Assembly (NCBI GenBank): GCA_030691265.1
Contig: JAUYET010000070.1
Span: 1-33,274 of the forward strand
Direction of reading: 5' to 3'
DNA: 33,274 nt
Source of the DNA: Pseudomonadota bacterium
GTDB lineage: Bacteria; Pseudomonadota; Gammaproteobacteria; Burkholderiales; Thiobacillaceae
The position numbers and the translations under genes are program-made. Numbering within the stretch: the first letter of the stretch is position 1; every line of letters starts with the position of its first letter. The notes beneath the pieces are model-generated. The model was not told where the DNA came from and did not search any database. It saw only the letters and a program-made list of their open reading frames with translations. This document shows, piece after piece, positions 10,225 through 24,954 of the stretch.

Positions 10225-11370
10225 TCAGGCGCTACGCCGACGCCGTGCCGACCAGCCCACCAGCGCCAGACCCGCCAACATCATGGCGTAGGTTTCGGGT
10301 TCCGGAATGGCAGGGATCACAGTGCCGCCGCCACCGCCCGAGGTTGCGCAGTTCAAGTCATTACAGAGCACGCCACCGCCACCTCCGGTGCTGTCGAATG
10401 CGATGTTGTAGCTGCCCAAATTCGTACCCGACATCGCATAAACGCTGGACCCGCCCGGCAATTCAAACCCGGTCATTTCGACCGTGTTTTCAAAGTTGCT
10501 GACCCCATTGCCCGAAACATAGGCTTGCAGATTGGAATTCAAATACAGCGCGGTACCAAAATAGAACGTACCGCCGTTCTGCTGAAGATCCTCATTGATG
10601 GTCAACTCGCCGGTTCCATTCTGGTAATCCCAGGCGCCCGCGGAATAGGTTTGCTTGTACCAAGAATCTGAAGACGCATCATAGCCGGCATTGATTGAAA
10701 CCAGGTTTTGGCCCTCGAAGTCGCGCAGGGACCAGGACATGGAGGCGTTTCCGGTGCCATCCGAATTGAGGCTGGGACCCAGTTTTCCATCTACATGGAA
10801 TGTGGCGTTGTAGTGGCCCAGAGCGGAGAACGGGCTACCACCGATCATGTACAGCTCTTCCCATTGGGAATTGGCGTTACCGTAGAGAGAACTGTTCGTC
10901 TGCTTATCGATCTGGATCGGCGAGAAGCCTGGGATAGGTGCCCCTTCCGCGTCGGAAGGTATGTAGTAGGACGTGGTGTTGGTGCTTACCTGCTGGTAAT
11001 TGTCAAAACTGGCCCGGGCGTGGTTCGAGCCCCAGGTCGTATGGGCATAGAGGTCGTAATCGACATCGTTAAGCCCCCGGGCAGGATCGCCTGTCCAGGT
11101 ACCCTGGTGAGACAGGGCAGCAGGCACACTGCCTGAGGTGTTGCCCTGGTTGTAGGTTGGCAGACCGCTAGTCCAGAGATTTCCGATGGCATCCTGATAG
11201 TAGGCAGATTTCAGATTGCCATCGGCATCGAGGCCGAACAGCACGCTCGTGTAGCTGGTATCCATTTGATACCAGCCGTAAGTCCAGTTCTGGACCCGGT
11301 ATTGGTTAGCCAGCGCCGGCGAGGCCACCAACAAACCCGCGAGAACCATCGTCAAATGTTTGATTTTCAT
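10225..11370 (-). CDS. PEP-CTERM sorting-domain protein
   Basis: The 381-residue exported protein has a signal peptide (MKIKHLTMVLAGLLVASPALA) and ends with the PEP-CTERM signal: IPEPETYAMML, a hydrophobic helix LAGLALVGW, then SARRRRSA. Exosortase systems recognise this tail, usually in bacteria that make extracellular polysaccharide. The body is rich in Gly, Ser, Asn, Tyr and Trp, as in beta-sandwich surface proteins; a Gly-rich linker precedes the tail. I cannot name a function. The ATG at 11370 has AAGGA about nine bases upstream. The whole gene lies inside the segment bounded by the 68-bp argJ duplication, indicating recent insertion. Confidence 0.9.
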   Translation of the reverse strand: MKIKHLTMVLAGLLVASPALANQYRVQNWTYGWYQMDTSYTSVLFGLDADGNLKSAYYQDAIGNLWTSGLPTYNQGNTSGSVPAALSHQGTWTGDPARGLNDVDYDLYAHTTWGSNHARASFDNYQQVSTNTTSYYIPSDAEGAPIPGFSPIQIDKQTNSSLYGNANSQWEELYMIGGSPFSALGHYNATFHVDGKLGPSLNSDGTGNASMSWSLRDFEGQNLVSINAGYDASSDSWYKQTYSAGAWDYQNGTGELTINEDLQQNGGTFYFGTALYLNSNLQAYVSGNGVSNFENTVEMTGFELPGGSSVYAMSGTNLGSYNIAFDSTGGGGGVLCNDLNCATSGGGGGTVIPAIPEPETYAMMLAGLALVGWSARRRRSA

Positions 11371-11716
11371 GACCCGTTCCTTACTTATCAAATTAAACAA
11401 AGTTATTCCCCTAATCCTCAAGCAAGAAATATTCCAGACCTTTAAGTCCATGATAGGCAATAGGTTTACCCCGACCAAGAATTTTGAGTGTAAAAATTCT
11501 CGACAACGCTTGCCGTGTCGGCATCTAGCCAGGCGCTTTGATGCTCACCTGCAAGATTCCGCCCAAGTCCGGCTCGTACCCCGCCACCAGAGGCATCCGA
11601 CCAATTCAGCACAAGAAAAAGCGGCGTGCGGCTAACGGCGAACCCAGGCAAGAGAACGTAAAGATTTCCGACAGATCAGCCTGGGGTCGGATTTCAACTT
11701 CCAGACCGGCTCCATT
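11371..11716. other. Gene-free end of the inserted segment, with an operator-like inverted repeat
   Basis: No convincing gene is present in these 346 bases. AGAATTTT (11478-11485) and AAAATTCT (11493-11500) form a perfect inverted repeat about 110 bp upstream of the PEP-CTERM start and could be an operator. No integrase or transposase fragment is recognisable. Confidence 0.5.
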
Positions 11717-12510: not shown

Positions 12511-12568
12511 GTAGGTGCGAATTCATTCGCACCGTGGGGCGTGACGGTGCGCATGAATTCGCACCTAC
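12511..12568. repeat. Paired REP (BIME), GTGCGAATTCATTCGCAC type, copy 1
   Basis: Two 22-nt arms (12511-12532 and 12547-12568), inverted with one mismatch and 14 nt apart, each start with GTAGG followed by a hairpin GTGCGAAT-TC-ATTCGCAC. It fills the gap between the binding-protein and permease genes. Confidence 0.9.
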
Positions 12569-16422: not shown

Positions 16423-16480
16423 GTAGGTGCGAATTTATTCGCACAATCCAGCGTTTCTGTGCGAATAAATTCGCACCTAC
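16423..16480. repeat. Paired REP (BIME), GTGCGAAT type, copy 2
   Basis: Perfectly inverted 22-nt arms (16423-16444 and 16459-16480) are separated by 14 nt. Each has GTAGG followed by the hairpin GTGCGAATTTATTCGCAC. It lies between the DUF815 and comM genes. Confidence 0.92.
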
Positions 16481-17997: not shown

Positions 17998-18073
17998 GAA
18001 ACCTCAGTTGACGGGTAAATTCATTACGATTCAATGTGTTGCGAGGCATCTGTAGGTGCGAATTCATTCGCAC
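17998..18073 (+). repeat. 76-bp dispersed repeat, copy 1, leading into a BIME
   Basis: The segment from GAAACCTCAGTTGACGG through ATTCATTACGATTCAATG to the first REP arm recurs at 24875-24950 with only a few substitutions. In both cases a gene stop precedes it closely, and a GTGCGAATTC REP arm follows directly. It may be one larger mobile unit. Confidence 0.85.
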
Positions 18074-18109
18074 CGAAGTCCTTGATTGTGCGAATAAATT
18101 CGCACCTAC
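18052..18109. repeat. Paired REP (BIME), GTGCGAATTCATTCGCAC type, copy 3
   Basis: Arms 18052-18073 and 18088-18109 are inverted with one mismatch and separated by 14 nt. It lies between comM and the VIT-family gene. Confidence 0.92.
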
Positions 18110-18148: not shown

Positions 18149-19210
18149 TTGCAAACAAACCCCGCTCAGGCGCTGGCAAGCTGGCGCGAGGAAAAGCGCT
18201 CCGCCTGGTTGTATCGCATCGTGTCGGATGCGGAGTCGGGCTCGCCCCGCCAGGTGCTGTTCCTGGAACTGGCGCAAGCCGCCGATGCGCAAGCTGCGCT
18301 TTGGCAAGCCGAAATGCACAAGCTGGGCATGGCGACGCCGGCGCGCTTCGTGCCGGATGCACGCGCCCGCTTCGTCGCCTGGCTGATTCCGCGCCTGGGC
18401 GTGCGGCCGCTGAAGGGCGTGCTTGCCGCCATGAAGGTGCGCGGCATGAGCCTGTATCACGCGGCTGCACCACACCACACGCCGCCGCACCACACGCCAG
18501 TGAGCCTTGAGCAGATGCGCGGCGAAAGCCACAAGACCGCCGGCAGCGGCAATCTGCGTGCGGCGGTGTTCGGCGTCAACGACGGCCTCATCTCCAACGC
18601 CAGTCTGATCCTGGGCGTCGCCGGCGCCGGCGCGGGCGCCGACATGATTCTGCTGTCCGGCGTTGCAGGACTGCTGGCCGGCGCATTTTCGATGGCGGCC
18701 GGCGAGTACGTTTCGATGCGCTCGCAGCGCGAATTTCACGAATATCAGATCGCGCTCGAACGCGAAGAACTGGACCAGTATCCGCAGGAGGAAGCGGCCG
18801 AACTGGCGCTGATCTATCAGGCCAAGGGCATCGGCAAGGAAGAGTCGAATCGCATGGCGCAGACCCTGATCGCCGACCCGGACCGCGCGCTCGACACCCT
18901 CGCGCGCGAGGAACTGGGCCTCAACCCGGACGAACTCGGCTCGCCCTGGGGCGCGGCCATCAGCTCGTTTCTCGCCTTCGCCGTCGGCGGATTCCTGCCG
19001 GTGCTGCCGTATCTGCTGCTCACCGGCGCGAACGCCTTTTACGGCGTCCTGGCCACGGCCGGCATCAGCCTGTTCGGCGTCGGCGCGGCGCTCAGCCTGT
19101 TCACCGGACGCGGCGCGCTCGCCGGCGGCATCCGCATGTTGCTGATCGGCGCCGGCGCGGGTGCTGCGACCTGGTTCATCGGCCGCGGCCTGGGCATCGT
19201 TCTGGCATAG
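18149..19210 (+). CDS. VIT1/CCC1-family iron/manganese transporter with N-terminal ferritin-like domain
   Basis: The 353-residue protein joins an N-terminal helical, ferritin-like domain (residues 1-105) to a membrane domain of the VIT1/CCC1 family. The membrane part starts LRAAVFGVNDGLISNASLILGVAGA and has the cytosolic metal-binding stretch AAGEYVSMRSQREF with downstream Glu-rich EREELDQYPQEEAAELA. About five hydrophobic helices are visible. A His-rich linker (H104 to H115, HAAAPHHTPPHH) joins the domains. VIT proteins export or store Fe/Mn with proton exchange. The start is a TTG at 18149, seven bases after AAGGA; no ATG fits. Ferritin-like and VIT fusions are known in bacteria. Confidence 0.9.
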   Translation: MQTNPAQALASWREEKRSAWLYRIVSDAESGSPRQVLFLELAQAADAQAALWQAEMHKLGMATPARFVPDARARFVAWLIPRLGVRPLKGVLAAMKVRGMSLYHAAAPHHTPPHHTPVSLEQMRGESHKTAGSGNLRAAVFGVNDGLISNASLILGVAGAGAGADMILLSGVAGLLAGAFSMAAGEYVSMRSQREFHEYQIALEREELDQYPQEEAAELALIYQAKGIGKEESNRMAQTLIADPDRALDTLAREELGLNPDELGSPWGAAISSFLAFAVGGFLPVLPYLLLTGANAFYGVLATAGISLFGVGAALSLFTGRGALAGGIRMLLIGAGAGAATWFIGRGLGIVLA

Positions 19211-19267: not shown

Positions 19268-21076
19268 TCAGGCAGGCACTGCCTCAGCCTGAATCACCTG
19301 CGTTTCCTTCGACGTCGAGGCTGCGCCGCACTCGCGGAAGATGCGCGCCTGGCAGGTGCGGCAGACGTTGCGGTCGAGGCGTCGGTAGATTGCCTCGATA
19401 GCTTCGGTCTTCGAGTCGAACAGGTTGATGCCGCCGATGGCCTTGAGCGCGCCGCTGTCCGCCATCTGTTCCTGCACGGTGTCCTTGATGCGGATGAAAT
19501 ACAGCCCGCCGCCGGTCGCGCGGCGTCTTTGCGCTTCCTCGGCCAGATACTGCGCGCCGGCCAGGTCGATGAAGTTGATGCCATGGGCGACGACAGCGAC
19601 ATGCTTCTGCGCCGGATGGGCTCGGTCCTGCGCCGCAAGCGATTCGCGGATGTGGGAAGTGGCGCCGAAGAACAGCGAGCCGTCGATACGCACAAATCGG
19701 AGTTGCGGGCATTCCGTCGTGCTGGCGGCATCGGTGAACTTGCGTTTGCTGCTGTTCGGGTCGGGGGCGCGCACCCGCACATGGGGTTTCGAGGTGCGCG
19801 ACAGGTAAACGGAAAGCGACAGCAGCACGCCGATGATGATGGCCTCTTCCAGCGCCAGGAACAGGGTGGCAGCGAAGGTGGCGAGCAGGATGGCGGTTTC
19901 GGCGTGGCTGGTCTTCAGAACGTGAATAATCTCTTTGAAGTCGATCAGACCCCAGGCCACCAGGAACAGGATGCCGGCCATGGCCGCGTTGGGCAGGTAT
20001 TGCGCCCAGGGCGCCACGAACAACACCAGCACCAGCAGGAAGATGCCGGCGAGCATCGCGGCGATTGGCGTCTTCGCCCCGGCGGCGTAGTTGACACCGC
20101 TGCGGTTGAAGGAGCCGGTGGCGACGTAGCCGGAGAAGAAACTGCCGAACAGGTTGGACAGCCCCTGGCCGACAAACTCCTGGTTGCCGTCCACATGCTG
20201 GCCGGATCGGGCCGCCAGTGAGCGTGCGATGGAGACGGCTTCGGTCAATGCCAGCAGGGTTACCGCCACCACGCCGGAGGCCACGGCGCGGATGCTTTCG
20301 CTATCCAGGCTGGGCGCGGACAGCGGCGGCAGCACATCGGGCAGCGCGCCCACCGTCGCCAGTTCAACGCCTTTCCAGGTGGTGAGCACAGCGGCCAGGG
20401 CGGAACCGCCGAGCATGGCGACGATCATGTACGGCCATTTCGGCGCCCAGCGTTTCACCGCGATGCCAAGCAGCAGCGTCGCCAGGCCCACCGCGAACAC
20501 GCCGATATGGATGTCTGAGACATGGCTGAGCGCCAGGCTCCAGGTATCGGTAAATGAGGTGCCGCGCGGGATGCTCAGGCCGGTGAAATGCTTGACCTGG
20601 TTGGTCGCGATGAGGATCGCCGCGCCGGCGGTAAAGCCGGTGACCACCGAATGCGAGATGAAATTGATCAGGCTGCCCAGCTTGGCGAATCCCATGGCGA
20701 CCTGGATCAGGCCGACCAGGAAGGTCAGCGTCAGCGCCAGGCTGACGTATTGCGCGCTACCCGGTTCGGCGTGCGGCGACAGCACCGAGAACAAGACAAT
20801 GGACGCCGCCGTGGTAGGGCCGGAGACCAGATGCCAGGACGAGCCGAACAGGGCGGCGATGACCGCCGGGATCATGCCGGCGTAGAGGCCGTATTCCGGC
20901 GGCATGCCGGCGATGGTGGCGAACGCCACGCCTTGCGGCAGGGCGACCAGGGCGCCGGTGAGGCCGGCCATTGCATCGGCCTTGACGGTGCCGCGATTGA
21001 CGCGCGGCAGCCAGGCGAGAAATGGCGCCAGCGGCCGCGCCCAGCGGGGGAGTTGATCTATGCGTCGTAGGTTCAT
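19268..21076 (-). CDS. SulP-family inorganic anion transporter with STAS domain
   Basis: The 602-residue protein is a SulP (SLC26-like) transporter. Its membrane domain is about residues 30-410, with the signature PPEYGLYAGMIPAVIAALFGSSWHLVSGPTTA and ten or more hydrophobic segments. A STAS domain follows (about 455-570: VRIDGSLFFGATSHIRESL, VVAHGINFIDLAGAQYL). The tail has three cysteines in CRTCQARIFREC, which could bind metal or sense redox state. SulP proteins carry sulfate, bicarbonate or other anions; the substrate cannot be told here. It is the second gene after an unknown protein and should be driven by the sigma-54 promoter at 21707-21721. Confidence 0.93.
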   Translation of the reverse strand: MNLRRIDQLPRWARPLAPFLAWLPRVNRGTVKADAMAGLTGALVALPQGVAFATIAGMPPEYGLYAGMIPAVIAALFGSSWHLVSGPTTAASIVLFSVLSPHAEPGSAQYVSLALTLTFLVGLIQVAMGFAKLGSLINFISHSVVTGFTAGAAILIATNQVKHFTGLSIPRGTSFTDTWSLALSHVSDIHIGVFAVGLATLLLGIAVKRWAPKWPYMIVAMLGGSALAAVLTTWKGVELATVGALPDVLPPLSAPSLDSESIRAVASGVVAVTLLALTEAVSIARSLAARSGQHVDGNQEFVGQGLSNLFGSFFSGYVATGSFNRSGVNYAAGAKTPIAAMLAGIFLLVLVLFVAPWAQYLPNAAMAGILFLVAWGLIDFKEIIHVLKTSHAETAILLATFAATLFLALEEAIIIGVLLSLSVYLSRTSKPHVRVRAPDPNSSKRKFTDAASTTECPQLRFVRIDGSLFFGATSHIRESLAAQDRAHPAQKHVAVVAHGINFIDLAGAQYLAEEAQRRRATGGGLYFIRIKDTVQEQMADSGALKAIGGINLFDSKTEAIEAIYRRLDRNVCRTCQARIFRECGAASTSKETQVIQAEAVPA

Positions 21077-21134
21077 TTAGATGGATTCGATTGCGAAGTG
21101 GAGTGAATAGAGGCCGGCGACGGGCTGCGCATAT

Positions 21135-21671
21135 TCATGCTGAGAATGCGAAATGGGGTGCGGGTTGGTGCGGAGCAGCGGGCGTTTTCTCGCTGACCAG
21201 CACGACCGGCACCGGCGTGCGCGGGGCTCGCCGGGTACGCAGGAACGGGCGCAGGGGGTCGTCCTCGCTGCCGGACACGGCGAAGATCAGGCCGCGATAC
21301 AAATTCATGGCGCGCAGAACGGAGGCTGTGGAGGCGCTCGCCACTTCTTCTGTCTTGCAGTCGATGCCGCGCAGGTTCGGCAGGTGCTCGGCCAGCAGCG
21401 CACGCACGCGCATGGCGTCGTCGCCGATCAGCAACAGATTGGCCTGCATACGCTGGCAGGCGCCGATGACATAGGCCATGACCGGCGCCGGCAGGGTGTC
21501 GCCGACGCCCAGGGCAATCCACTTGCTCGACGGGGCGGCGGGCGGCGTAACCGGTTGCGCCTCGGAGGGGTAGAGGGCGGCGTATTTTTCACGGCGTCCG
21601 ACCCGTTCGCCGATGTCGGCATAAGAAAGGGCGTTGAGGGCTTGCTTGAGTTGCTTGGCCAGGGTCTTCAT
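21135..21671 (-). CDS. Unknown protein co-transcribed with SulP transporter
   Basis: I do not recognise a family for this 178-residue protein. It has no signal peptide or membrane segment. The middle (residues 50-150) alternates strands and helices: KWIALGVGDTLPAPVMAY, ANLLLIGDDAMRVRALLAEH, MNLYRGLIFAVSGSEDDP and TPVPVVLVSEK. This recalls a Rossmann-like or universal-stress-like fold. The ATG at 21671 has GGAG nine bases upstream. It is the first gene behind a sigma-54 promoter, 58 bp before SulP, so it may be a cytosolic accessory or regulator of that transporter. That role is inferred from position. Confidence 0.7.
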   Translation of the reverse strand: MKTLAKQLKQALNALSYADIGERVGRREKYAALYPSEAQPVTPPAAPSSKWIALGVGDTLPAPVMAYVIGACQRMQANLLLIGDDAMRVRALLAEHLPNLRGIDCKTEEVASASTASVLRAMNLYRGLIFAVSGSEDDPLRPFLRTRRAPRTPVPVVLVSEKTPAAPHQPAPHFAFSA

Positions 21672-21687
21672 GAGCAGGTTCTCCAGT

Positions 21688-21706
21688 GATAGGTAGGTCA
21701 CCTATC
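21688..21706. promoter_or_regulatory. Inverted repeat over the predicted transcription start
   Basis: GATAGGT and ACCTATC, five bases apart, follow the -12 element of the sigma-54 promoter directly and span its predicted start site near 21696. It could be an operator or a 5'-end hairpin of the mRNA. Confidence 0.5.
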
Positions 21707-21721
21707 GCAAGCGCCATGCCA
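21707..21721 (-). promoter_or_regulatory. Sigma-54 (-24/-12) promoter for the unknown-SulP operon
   Basis: Minus-strand TGGCATG-GCGC-TTGC matches the sigma-54 consensus TGGCAYR-N4-TTGC at every specified base, with correct GG-GC spacing. The predicted start near 21696 leaves a leader of about 25 nt containing GGAG. An NtrC-type activator is encoded divergently in the same locus. Confidence 0.8.
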
Positions 21722-21785
21722 TCGGCAATAAATTCGCAACCTGTTGTTTTTTCAGGAATAAGTATTTTTACTGCCGATTGAAAAA

Positions 21786-21803
21786 TGTTTCTGTTTTGAA
21801 ACG
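21786..21803. promoter_or_regulatory. Candidate enhancer (UAS) 1 for the sigma-54 activator
   Basis: TGTTTC-N6-GAAACG is an inverted repeat centred about 98 bp upstream of the predicted start, a typical distance for NtrC-type activators. It matches the site at 21873-21890 in half-sites and spacing. Confidence 0.65.
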
Positions 21804-21872
21804 CTCTCCCAGGCGATTAGTATAAGTAACTGATTCAGAACGAATCTTCACAAACGTTTAGTATTTGAAACA

Positions 21873-21890
21873 TGTTTCCAGACTGAAACA
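21873..21890. promoter_or_regulatory. Candidate enhancer (UAS) 2 for the sigma-54 activator
   Basis: TGTTTC-N6-GAAACA has the same half-sites and spacing as 21786-21803, centred about 185 bp upstream of the operon start. It ends four bases before the kinase ATG, so it could also mediate autoregulation. A further overlapping palindrome GAAACATGTTTC (21867-21878) adds a third half-site. Confidence 0.65.
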
Positions 21891-21894
21891 CGAC

Positions 21895-23370
21895 ATGTCC
21901 AGCATCCGCAGCAAGATCACCTATATCTACCTCGCCCTGGCGCTTGGCGTCGGCGCTTTCGTGCTGTTCGCCTCGGCCAGCTTGCACTTCCTGGAACAGC
22001 GCATGACCGAAGGGGTGGCGATCGCCGCGTTCCAGGAAACCGCCCAGGAGATGCGCCGGCACGAGAAGAACTTTTTCCTCTACCGCGCCCAGGCTGAACT
22101 CGACGCCGCGCACGATCTGGCGGTCGAACTGGAACAGCGGCTGGTAAAGGATCGCGCGGTCATGGCCGAACTGGCGGCGCCCGACGAACTGCTCGCACTT
22201 GCCCGGTCGCTGACGCGCTATCGCCGCCTGCTCGACGACGACGCGCGGGCCGAAGCCGATTTGCGCGGCGCCGGCCACGAGATTCTGACCCGCAGCGAGA
22301 GCCTGGCGCAGCGCGAGCGCGCCACCTTGAGCGGCAGCATGCGGCAGTCGCGCCACGCGCTGCTCTGGTCGGTCGGGGTGCTGGTACTGCTGGCGCTGGC
22401 CGGTGGCCAGGTGCTGTATCGCGTGGTGGTGCGCCCGTTGCGGCAACTGGAGAAACAAGTCGAACCTCTGGCGCATGGCGAATTCCGCGCCTTCTCGATG
22501 GTGTCGAAGGATCGCGAGATCGTCTCCTTCACCCAGGCGCTCAATCACATGCTGGAAGAGCTCGAATTGCACCGCCGCCTGGTGCTGCAATCGGAAAAGC
22601 TCGCCTCGCTGGGCACGCTGGCCTCCGGCGTGGCGCACGAACTCAATAATCCGCTCGGCAACATTTCCGGCGCCGCCCAGATCGCGCTGGAGGAAATCGA
22701 ATCGCTGCCGTTGTCTTTGCCAGCAACGGCGCGCGCGGAGTTGCGTTCCTGGCTCCAGCAGATCGACGACGAAACCGAACGCGCCCGCCAGATCGTGCGC
22801 ACCCTGCTCGATTACAGCCGCCGCCCCGGCCATGAGAGCCTTCCCACCCCGCTGCTGGGTGTGCTGGAAAAGAGCCTGCTGCTGCTGCGCCCGCGCCTGC
22901 CCGCGGACGACACCGTCAGCTTCGACGTGGCGGCCGAACTCATGCTCTGCATCGACCCGCAGCGGATGCAGCAGGTGTTCATCAACCTGATCCAGAACGC
23001 GCTCGATGCCGGCGGGAAAAGCGTGCATATCCATATCGAGGCCGCCGCCGTCGCGCCGCACGACTGGCCGCCGGCCGAGCTGGCGCATGACATGGCGATG
23101 GGGCGGGCGCAAGTGCTGGGCGCGCCGGTCAGCGCGGCGCGCGCGGTGCTCATCCGCCTTCGCGACGACGGCCCCGGCATTCCCACCGAGCGCATCGGCC
23201 AGGTCTTCGACCCCTTCTTCACCACCCGCGCGCCGGGCGAGGGCACCGGCCTCGGCCTCTACATCGTCGCCGAGATCGTGCAGGAACACGGCGGCGCCAT
23301 CGCCGTGACCAGCTTGCCCGGCGGCGGCGCGTGTTTCACGTTGTGGTTGCCGTGCGGAGGCCAGCCATGA
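21895..23370 (+). CDS. Membrane sensor histidine kinase of a sigma-54 two-component system
   Basis: This 491-residue sensor has two membrane helices (about 9-31 and 157-177) enclosing a helical periplasmic domain of about 125 residues. A HAMP-like segment VVRPLRQLEKQVEPLAHGEF follows, then the H-box SLGTLASGVAHELNNPLGN with phospho-acceptor H248. The ATPase domain has NLIQNALDAGG, DDGPGIP and GTGLGLYIV. It should phosphorylate the NtrC-type regulator encoded next. I chose the ATG at 21895 because the upstream start at 21865 lies in the regulatory palindromes. The signal is unknown; proximity to SulP suggests an anion or membrane stress. Confidence 0.93.
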   Translation: MSSIRSKITYIYLALALGVGAFVLFASASLHFLEQRMTEGVAIAAFQETAQEMRRHEKNFFLYRAQAELDAAHDLAVELEQRLVKDRAVMAELAAPDELLALARSLTRYRRLLDDDARAEADLRGAGHEILTRSESLAQRERATLSGSMRQSRHALLWSVGVLVLLALAGGQVLYRVVVRPLRQLEKQVEPLAHGEFRAFSMVSKDREIVSFTQALNHMLEELELHRRLVLQSEKLASLGTLASGVAHELNNPLGNISGAAQIALEEIESLPLSLPATARAELRSWLQQIDDETERARQIVRTLLDYSRRPGHESLPTPLLGVLEKSLLLLRPRLPADDTVSFDVAAELMLCIDPQRMQQVFINLIQNALDAGGKSVHIHIEAAAVAPHDWPPAELAHDMAMGRAQVLGAPVSAARAVLIRLRDDGPGIPTERIGQVFDPFFTTRAPGEGTGLGLYIVAEIVQEHGGAIAVTSLPGGGACFTLWLPCGGQP

Positions 23371-23396
23371 ACCCGGATGCCTCGATTGGCGTCTTT

Positions 23397-23454
23397 GTAG
23401 GTGCGAATTCATTCGCACATAAGCGCTGGACTGTGCGAATAAATTCGCACCTAC
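23397..23454. repeat. Paired REP (BIME), GTGCGAATTCATTCGCAC type, copy 4
   Basis: Arms 23397-23418 and 23433-23454 are inverted with one mismatch and separated by 14 nt. It occupies the gap between kinase and regulator genes, where it could reduce downstream expression or stabilise the upstream mRNA. Confidence 0.92.
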
Positions 23455-23470
23455 GACGGAAACATTCAGC

Positions 23471-24835
23471 ATGAACCCCGCCCGCATCCTGGTCGTCGAC
23501 GACGAAGCCGCCGCCCTGAAAACCCTTTCCCACCTGCTGCGCAAGGAAGGCTACGAAATCACCGCCTGCCAGAGCGGTGTGGCCGGGCTGAAGGAGTTGC
23601 AGCAGCACGAATTCGATGTGGTGCTCACCGACCTGCGCATGAAGAGTGTGGACGGCATGGAGGTGCTGCGTCGCGCGCGCGAGTTACAGGCGGACTGCGA
23701 GGTCATTGTCATCACCGGCCACGCCACGCTGGACTCCGCCGTCGAGGCGATGAAGGAAGGCGCCTTCCACTACATCGCCAAGCCCTATCGCCTCGACGAA
23801 GTGCGCCAGGTGGTCAAGGGCGCGCTCGACGTGGTGCTGCTGAAAAGGGAAAACCGCGCCCTGAAGCGGCGTATCGAGGGCTACGAGGGCGGCCTCAACA
23901 TCGTCACTCAGGATGCGGCGATGCTGCGCTTGCTCGATACCGCGCGCCAGATCGGGCCGACCGACTGCAGTGTGCTGGTCACCGGCGAATCCGGCACCGG
24001 CAAGGAATTGCTGGCGCGCTATGTCCATACCCATAGCGGTCGCGCCGGCAGCCGCGGGTTTGCCACATTCGTCGCGGTGAACTGCGGCGCGCTGCAGGAG
24101 GAATTGCTCGCCAACGAACTGTTCGGCCACGAGAAAGGCGCTTTCACCGGCGCCGACCGGCAGAAGCGCGGCCTCATCGAAATCGCCGAGGGCGGCACCC
24201 TGTTCCTCGACGAAGTCACCGAAATGTCGCCCGCCATGCAGGTCAAGCTGCTGCGCGTCCTGCAGGAGCGCGAGCTGATGCGCGTCGGCGGCACCGAGCC
24301 GGTGGCGATCGATGTGCGCTTCATCGCCGCCAGCAACCGCGATCTTCAGGAAAGTGTCGCGAGCGGCCGTTTCCGCGCCGACCTGTTTTTCCGCCTCAAC
24401 GTCGTCAACCTCGCGCTGCCGCCATTGCGCGAACGGCGCGACGACGTGCCCTTGCTGGCGTTCTATTTCCTGAAGAAATTCGCCCTGGCGATGGGCAAGC
24501 CGGTCGCCGACATCGCCCCGGACGCGCTGCGCCTGCTCAGTCGCTACGACTACCCCGGCAATGTGCGCGAACTCGCCAATCTGATCGAACGCGGGGTGGC
24601 GCTGGCGCGCGGCGAATTGCTCGAACTCGCCCACCTGCCGGAAAGCCTGCGCAGCCTCACGGTGCGGGTGATCTCAGCGGTAAGCGGTGAACTGCACACG
24701 CTGGAAAAGAACGAGGCCACCCACATCGCCCAGGTGTTGGCCTACACCGGCGGCAACCGCAACCAGGCCGCCGACATCCTCGGCATCGACCGGGTTTCGC
24801 TCTGGCGGCGGATCAAGCGGTATGGGCTGGAGTGA
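23471..24835 (+). CDS. NtrC-family sigma-54-dependent response regulator
   Basis: The 454-residue regulator has a receiver domain (D10, D11, phospho-acceptor D54 in VVLTDLRM, K104). An AAA+ domain follows with Walker A GESGTGKE at 172-179, the sigma-54 contact motif GAFTGA at 223-228 and Walker B GGTLFLDE at 241-248. A Fis-type helix-turn-helix completes it ([20 protein letters not shown] near 430). All elements for activating sigma-54 polymerase are intact. The partner kinase is directly upstream, separated by a BIME. The likely target is the divergent unknown-SulP operon, which has a sigma-54 promoter and paired upstream sites. Confidence 0.96.
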
Positions 24836-24874: not shown

Positions 24875-24954
24875 AAAACCTCAGTTGACGGATGAATTCA
24901 TTACGATTCAATGTGTTGCGAGATGTCTGTAGGCGCGAATTCATTCGCACCTAC
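24875..24954 (+). repeat. 76-bp dispersed repeat, copy 2, with collapsed REP
   Basis: 24875-24950 repeats 17998-18073 with few changes. The following REP is collapsed: GTAGGCGCGAAT (24929-24940) pairs almost directly with ATTCGCACCTAC (24943-24954), so the 14-nt spacer and one hairpin are missing. It lies 40 bp after the regulator gene. The rest of 24836-25106 holds no gene. Confidence 0.85.

Follow-up and report, generated by a model that had tools for sequence, protein, structure and literature searches.

A predicted sigma-54 circuit facing a SulP-family transporter operon in a Thiobacillaceae bacterium

Layout of the locus

The stretch of DNA analysed here, called the window, comprises the 33,274 nucleotides of contig JAUYET010000070.1 from a member of the Thiobacillaceae (GenBank assembly GCA_030691265.1), whose genome of 2.02 Mb is 58% complete and lies in 117 contigs. 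Between positions 19268 and 24835, genes for a membrane histidine kinase and an NtrC-family response regulator stand divergently to an operon for a protein of 178 amino acids (aa) and a SulP-family anion transporter. A first-pass annotation, made from the sequence, had placed these four genes and a sigma-54 promoter, and had described the kinase and regulator as divergent from the operon; positions and arrangement are both borne out. The start codon of the kinase gene was chosen by conservation. The features are the following:

19268-21076, minus strand: SulP-family anion transporter with STAS domain, 602 aa (Pfam, NCBIfam)
21135-21671, minus strand: 178-aa gene, first of the operon (ATG at 21671, GGAG upstream)
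21721-21707, minus strand: predicted sigma-54 (-24/-12) promoter TGGCATGGCGCTTGC, conserved as TGGCAYR-N5-TGC
21737-21749, minus strand: IHF-like sequence AAACAACAGGTTG, 28 base pairs (bp) upstream of the -24 box, one mismatch to WATCAANNNNTTR
21786-21803, no strand assigned: putative operator/enhancer site 1, TGTTTCTGTTTTGAAACG, TGTTTC-N6-GAAACG (pattern match and conservation)
21796-21823, plus strand: sigma-70-like TTGAAA-16-TAGTAT, candidate kinase promoter (one found, 0.3 expected; weak)
21855-21872, no strand assigned: putative operator site 2, CGTTTAGTATTTGAAACA, with a degenerate left arm and a -10-like TAGTAT (pattern match and conservation)
21873-21890, no strand assigned: putative operator site 3, TGTTTCCAGACTGAAACA, a perfect TGTTTC-N6-GAAACA (pattern match and conservation)
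21895-23370, plus strand: membrane histidine kinase, 491 aa (Pfam and sensor model)
23471-24835, plus strand: NtrC-family response regulator, 454 aa (Pfam)

The gap between the 178-aa gene and sulP measures 58 bp, and no terminator-like site was seen in 21000-22000. The intergenic region shared by the 178-aa gene and the divergent kinase gene is 223 bp long.

The sigma-54 promoter

The promoter precedes the start codon of the 178-aa gene by about 36 bp; transcription from it would begin near 21696, about 12 bp after the -12 GC, as is usual for sigma-54. The sigma-54 consensus is TGGCACG-N4-TTGC. The fit had been called exact at the key positions: this stands for the -24 GG and the -12 GC, which occur at the fixed spacing by which sigma-54 promoters are recognised, with one mismatch to the full consensus. 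The patterns used for sigma-54, integration host factor (IHF) and sigma-70 were general consensus patterns, in part those built into a tool.

Matches to the promoter pattern occur at chance level in the window, so that its sequence alone does not establish the promoter; the comparison between loci settles the matter. TGGCAYR-N5-TGC recurs without mismatch in all 26 orthologous loci, the conservation in homologous loci that the first-pass annotation had asked for. The exact promoter is also present in 14 of 14 further loci, paralogous or more distant, in 15 of 19 new loci from a third batch and in 11 of 14 from a fourth, i.e., in 66 of the 73 distinct loci overall. The gene for sigma-54, rpoN, was found in all five of the more complete relatives.

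The palindromic sites

Two sites of the form TGTTTC-N6-GAAAC had been proposed upstream of the promoter. Both are there, and the number is to be corrected to three, the middle one being degenerate; their centres are 98.5, 167.5 and 185.5 bp upstream of the predicted start. At up to two mismatches, these three compare with 0.76 expected in the window, and three were reached in four of 100 shuffles. The inverted repeats are not lost in orthologous loci, and their spacing is kept in the window's clade, where nine aligned loci have a mean identity of 90% in the promoter box, 86, 85 and 81% in sites 1 to 3 and 94% in the arms of sites 1 and 3, compared with 60% in the rest.

A search of 40 intergenic regions, with a pattern that covers both arm types and both spacings described below, returned 68 palindromes at up to one mismatch where shuffles predict 1.16, and 38 of the 40 loci hold at least one (three in the window, one to three elsewhere). 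At the same threshold, palindromes occur in 17 of the 21 loci of the third batch and 13 of the 14 of the fourth. The 11 loci of the window's clade have TTC/GAA arms with six bases between them; the other loci mostly have TGC/GCA with five. The last helix of the regulator's helix-turn-helix domain reads LWRRIKRYG in 10 out of 10 readable members of the TTC/GAA clade (one contig stops before the regulator) and LWRK in all 27 others. This agreement of helix type with site type fits a regulator that reads the palindromes.

Across 12 whole genomes, the exact palindrome occurs nine times, eight of them at this locus (reversed-pattern control, 0), while six genomes together hold 17 occurrences of the relaxed form YGTTTC-N6-GAAACR, of which 12 belong to this locus (control, 2). 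In its own genome, the window is accompanied by one additional relaxed palindrome, on contig 105.

IHF-like sequence and a candidate kinase promoter

The IHF consensus is WATCAANNNNTTR. Among 40 loci, 25 have such a site, at zero or one mismatch, in the 70 bp that precede the promoter, where 2.8 were expected; in 18 of those 25 it starts 28-29 bp from the -24 box.

On the kinase side, the -35 hexamer of the sigma-70-like element falls inside site 1, and the -10-like TAGTAT of site 2 has no convincing -35 at a suitable distance. Since a kinase promoter would overlap operators in either case, autoregulation is likely: the regulator probably also controls its own kinase/regulator operon and, judging from this overlap, most likely represses it. 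The nine aligned loci also share TAA and, five bases from it, TGATT at 21823-21835 between sites 1 and 2, possibly part of the kinase promoter.

The kinase and the regulator

The kinase has two transmembrane helices flanking a helical periplasmic domain, followed by HAMP, HisKA and HATPase domains. The model of residues 1-235 (10 sequences; mean predicted local distance difference test score, pLDDT, 74.5; predicted template modelling score, pTM, 0.55) consists of long helices that form a bundle with HAMP. Its first Foldseek matches are NarQ (5jgp, E 1.4e-3) and QseE (9m08_C, E 1.9e-3), none below 0.001, and all-helical models match easily in fold searches. The invariant residues E52, R54, R55, E57 and N59 would suit an anion site. 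The sensor fold and the output of the circuit lead us to guess, from the model, that the signal is an anion. The nitrate motif G-x-x-R of the first periplasmic helix is absent from the sensor, which rules out a nitrate sensor proper of the NarQ/NarX type. The HBM sensor family (PF16591) did not match the window kinase and reached 21.1 bits, against a cut-off of 29.8, with the kinase of locus L034.

The regulator combines a receiver domain, an AAA+ domain with GAFTGA and a Fis-type helix-turn-helix, the composition of an NtrC-family activator; its motifs are TDLRM at 53, GESGTGKE at 172 and GAFTGA at 223. It scores below the NCBIfam cut-offs for AtoC (448/714), ZraR (385/760), NtrC (377/558.6), the PEP-CTERM regulator (372/502.6) and GlrR (363/763).

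In 25 of the 26 orthologous loci, the 178-aa gene is divergent from a homologous kinase gene. In the remaining one (genome G005; L036, short locus L010), it faces the regulator gene directly, with no kinase match between, and the promoter and three palindromes are kept despite the missing kinase gene. A second kinase/regulator locus is present in some of these genomes and in further ones. At L089, L090 and L091 (genomes G007, G012 and G001), this paralogous locus, about 9-12 kb from the first, comes with a sigma-54-type promoter of its own and a long SulP.

The 178-aa protein and free small proteins

No Pfam or NCBIfam family was found for the 178-aa protein; the Pfam Usp family did not match it and matched one of 23 homologues at E 0.0059. 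Its AlphaFold model (11 sequences; mean pLDDT 73.6, pTM 0.58) has an N-terminal helix and an alpha/beta domain, for which Foldseek lists the Usp domain of KdpD first (E 2.8e-3, none below 0.001) with dehydrogenase folds close behind. The weak scores and near-equal dehydrogenase folds make a Usp-like identity probable only, and the protein, as modelled, probably consists of a conserved N-terminal helix and a Usp-like domain. A profile of the family against solved structures (five sequences; best E 0.049) was uninformative, and tblastn returned no match in a plasmid collection.

Of 149 genomes, 26 (counting that of the window) encode the protein, a figure that underestimates its spread because elsewhere only the N-terminal helix is kept. 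In 15 of the 17 exact-promoter loci of the third batch, the reading frame listed after the promoter encodes a short, free-standing protein (56-95 aa) that carries a motif like LNALAFANVGNLGEF, a motif recognised by reading the sequences; of the other two loci, one had no such open reading frame among those listed and one had an unrelated frame. Eight of these small proteins gave no NCBIfam family apart from one chance-level match. In several other Gammaproteobacteria of the fourth batch, the protein is long and Usp-like again. At the second type of locus (e.g., L089 to L091), there is a Usp-like reading frame, weakly matched by the profile, without the N-terminal motif, and at L095 neither form was seen; the small protein is thus usual, not universal. 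A joint role with the transporter is probable for the Usp-like protein or its N-terminal helix.

The transporter and its replacements

The window transporter matches Pfam Sulfate_transp (313 bits) and STAS, and its score of 393.3 for NCBIfam sulP (TIGR00815) exceeds the cut-off of 380.45. Two more specific assignments were rejected, namely the equivalogs BicA (163, cut-off 880) and DauA (255.5, cut-off 614).

Where the downstream membrane protein was assigned, which is a part of the loci, the SulP takes the form of the window type, of a fusion to two Usp domains (L038) or of a longer SulP. In its place, TauE/SafE stands at L034, L037, L042 and L095 (Pfam) and at L096, L099, L114, L120 and L125 (tblastn), and DUF599 at L087, L097 and L098 (Pfam) and L112, L116, L121 and L123 (tblastn). 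Across many bacterial families, the control region is conserved while the membrane protein downstream changes; the arrangement is therefore not special to SulP.

Spread and genomic company

The kinase sensor profile reaches further than the survey for the 178-aa protein: it has matches in 27 of 399 genomes from the order and in 15 of 369 from the class, with the window's own genome in both sets. In most genomes, only the best eight or nine candidates were scored; a genome called negative may therefore hide a circuit. Among the loci, L009 is the second piece of the gene at L027 and was left out of the counts; L101-L105, L109, L124 and L128 fall within loci that had entered the counts before; L115 and L129 were inspected in the third batch and share their count with L087 and L086. 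For the weak matches L084, L085 and L088, the neighbours alone were inspected, and those of L084 and L085 included no kinase or regulator match.

Genomes with the circuit tend to be those of sulphur-oxidising autotrophs. RuBisCO was matched in 30 of 30 genomes with the circuit and nine of 30 without, SoxB exceeded its cut-off in 29 of 30 and 11 of 30, and both occurred together in 29 of 30 and six of 30 (Fisher p 7e-10), the negative genomes being the first entries of lists instead of a random draw and the statistics ignoring shared ancestry. The SoxB of G791 consists of two short pieces below the cut-off, and the RuBisCO of the window's genome is a fragment at a contig end. This company suggests that the bacteria use a dedicated switch to handle an anion made or needed in sulphur-driven growth.

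Interpretation and alternatives

We consider it very probable, from the conserved arrangement of genes and sites, that the kinase/regulator pair forms a dedicated sigma-54 circuit that switches on the Usp-like gene and sulP. The helical bundle of the kinase would sense a periplasmic signal, perhaps a small anion, and the kinase would phosphorylate the regulator, which would oligomerise on the palindromes; with the DNA bent at the IHF-like site, the AAA+ domain could open the sigma-54 polymerase at -24/-12, and the Usp-like protein and SulP would be made. As for the ion, a sulphur oxyanion (sulphate or sulphite) tied to sulphur oxidation is the likeliest candidate, given that TauE/SafE exchanges with SulP and that SoxB is found alongside the circuit; of all the steps, this one is the least certain.

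More tentatively, the loci may represent an unnamed family of anion-sensing sigma-54 circuits, common in sulphur-oxidising autotrophs of many families of Gammaproteobacteria. The transporter would be interchangeable (SulP, SulP-Usp fusion, long SulP, TauE/SafE or DUF599) and usually made together with a small protein with the LNALAFANVGNLGEF motif, free or fused to Usp, that gates it.

Several observations count against these proposals. In the window by itself, the promoter pattern is found 20 times at up to two mismatches, with 19.0 expected. The exact promoter is missing in seven of the 73 loci, four with a near match (L106 to L108 keep GG and GC with CGC in place of TGC; L127 has one mismatch, by reading) and three, L134, L139 and L140, with no match seen. 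The 58%-complete genome of the window yielded no rpoN. The pattern behind the 68 palindromes was fixed after inspection of the loci, which shuffling leaves uncorrected, and the match of helix type to site type may reflect a single evolutionary event. Five of the 17 relaxed palindromes in the six genomes lie outside the locus, and further targets of the regulator are thus possible; the circuit, first described as closed, appears so in G007 (98% complete), where both relaxed palindromes of the genome are in this intergenic region, and not across the six. As regards the ion, the association of the circuit with RuBisCO is at least as close as that with SoxB.

Bicarbonate is accordingly a serious rival substrate, given also that the SulP family includes carriers of bicarbonate (PMC12628692, in the part available). 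The same circuit might control a SulP that imports bicarbonate for carbon fixation, with a kinase that reads inorganic-carbon status, which we regard as possible though doubtful. RuBisCO was matched in every one of the 30 circuit genomes (as the fragment in the window's own), and several relatives have NADH-dehydrogenase-like membrane subunits (PF00361, PF00146) beside SulP. The window SulP, however, falls short of the BicA equivalog as given above, and TauE/SafE, which elsewhere stands in the same position, is not known as a bicarbonate carrier. According to the available part of PMC12628692, some SulP proteins of autotrophs do carry inorganic carbon, but a different SulP, from Thiomicrospira pelophila, failed to restore growth at low CO2.

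It is improbable that the regulator controls from the palindromes nothing but its own kinase/regulator operon while another activator drives the sigma-54 promoter of the Usp-like gene. Sites 2 and 3 do adjoin the kinase start and overlap a -10-like hexamer, and site 1 overlaps the sigma-70-like -35; yet site 1 at -98 with an IHF-like site before the promoter is standard enhancer geometry, and promoter and palindromes recur together in distant loci. That both are chance matches, as the unenriched promoter pattern and the four shuffles with three palindromes might hint for the window alone, is hardly credible and is contradicted by a promoter conserved in 26 of 26 orthologous loci and beyond.

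Other features of the window

Three further kinds of feature lie in the window:

18149-19210, plus strand: VIT1-family protein (PF01988), extended by about 135 residues at its N-terminus; its gene and sulP converge
10225-11478, minus strand: protein with a PEP-CTERM-like sorting signal at its end (by sequence reading)
12515-12564, 16427-16476, 18056-18105, 23401-23450 and 24933-24950: REPIN-like palindromes (pattern match)

The REPIN-like palindromes, GTGCGAATNNATTCGCAC, gave nine matches at up to two mismatches (0.01 expected), as four pairs, 32 bp from start to start, and one single; one pair occupies the gap between the kinase and regulator genes.

Comparison with known systems

Sigma-54 kinase/regulator pairs that drive a transporter are of a known kind. 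DctB/DctD with dctA likewise has a divergent pair, a transporter, a sigma-54 promoter and tandem upstream sites, but its carrier of C4-dicarboxylates belongs to another family and its sensor has another fold. NarQ/NarX share the helical bundle between two transmembrane helices, then HAMP; their nitrate motif G-x-x-R (PMC8199190, in the part available) is absent from the sensor here. QseE/QseF (GlrK/GlrR) is a sigma-54 two-component system whose QseE sensor is among the top fold matches, whereas the window regulator reaches 363 for GlrR (cut-off 763); a table in PMC3162934, a source available in part, connects QseF-like regulators with stress by sulphate and phosphate.

Compared by description, from the available part of PMC6335251, TspS/TspR of Acidithiobacillus caldus, the sigma-54 two-component system of the sox-II cluster, is also a sulphur oxidiser's kinase/regulator pair beside its target, with a palindromic upstream site, TGTCCCAAATGGGACA; unlike here, the target is sox, not a transporter, and the sequence of the site differs. 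The SulP inorganic-carbon transporters of T. pelophila (PMC12628692) are SulP proteins of sulphur-oxidising autotrophs as well. No Usp-like partner was seen in the available part of that paper, and the terms sigma, NtrC, RpoN, two-component and histidine kinase are absent from its text.

In agreement with the first-pass annotation, the literature searched (sigma-54, SulP, TauE, DUF599, Usp, sulphur oxidation and NarQ-type sensors) gave, among the matches listed and in the portions available, no description of a SulP under a sigma-54 kinase/regulator pair, a weak absence with most subscription journals outside its scope; nor is one described in the available parts of PMC4641369, PMC12316311 and PMC11582611. 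The exchange of transporters offers a direct route to their common substrate, and further targets can be predicted from the sequence of the conserved operators. Set beside these known systems, three things are apparently new within the literature as searched: a SulP as the target, a Usp-like protein as its partner, and a conserved control region under which one family of transporters can stand in for another.

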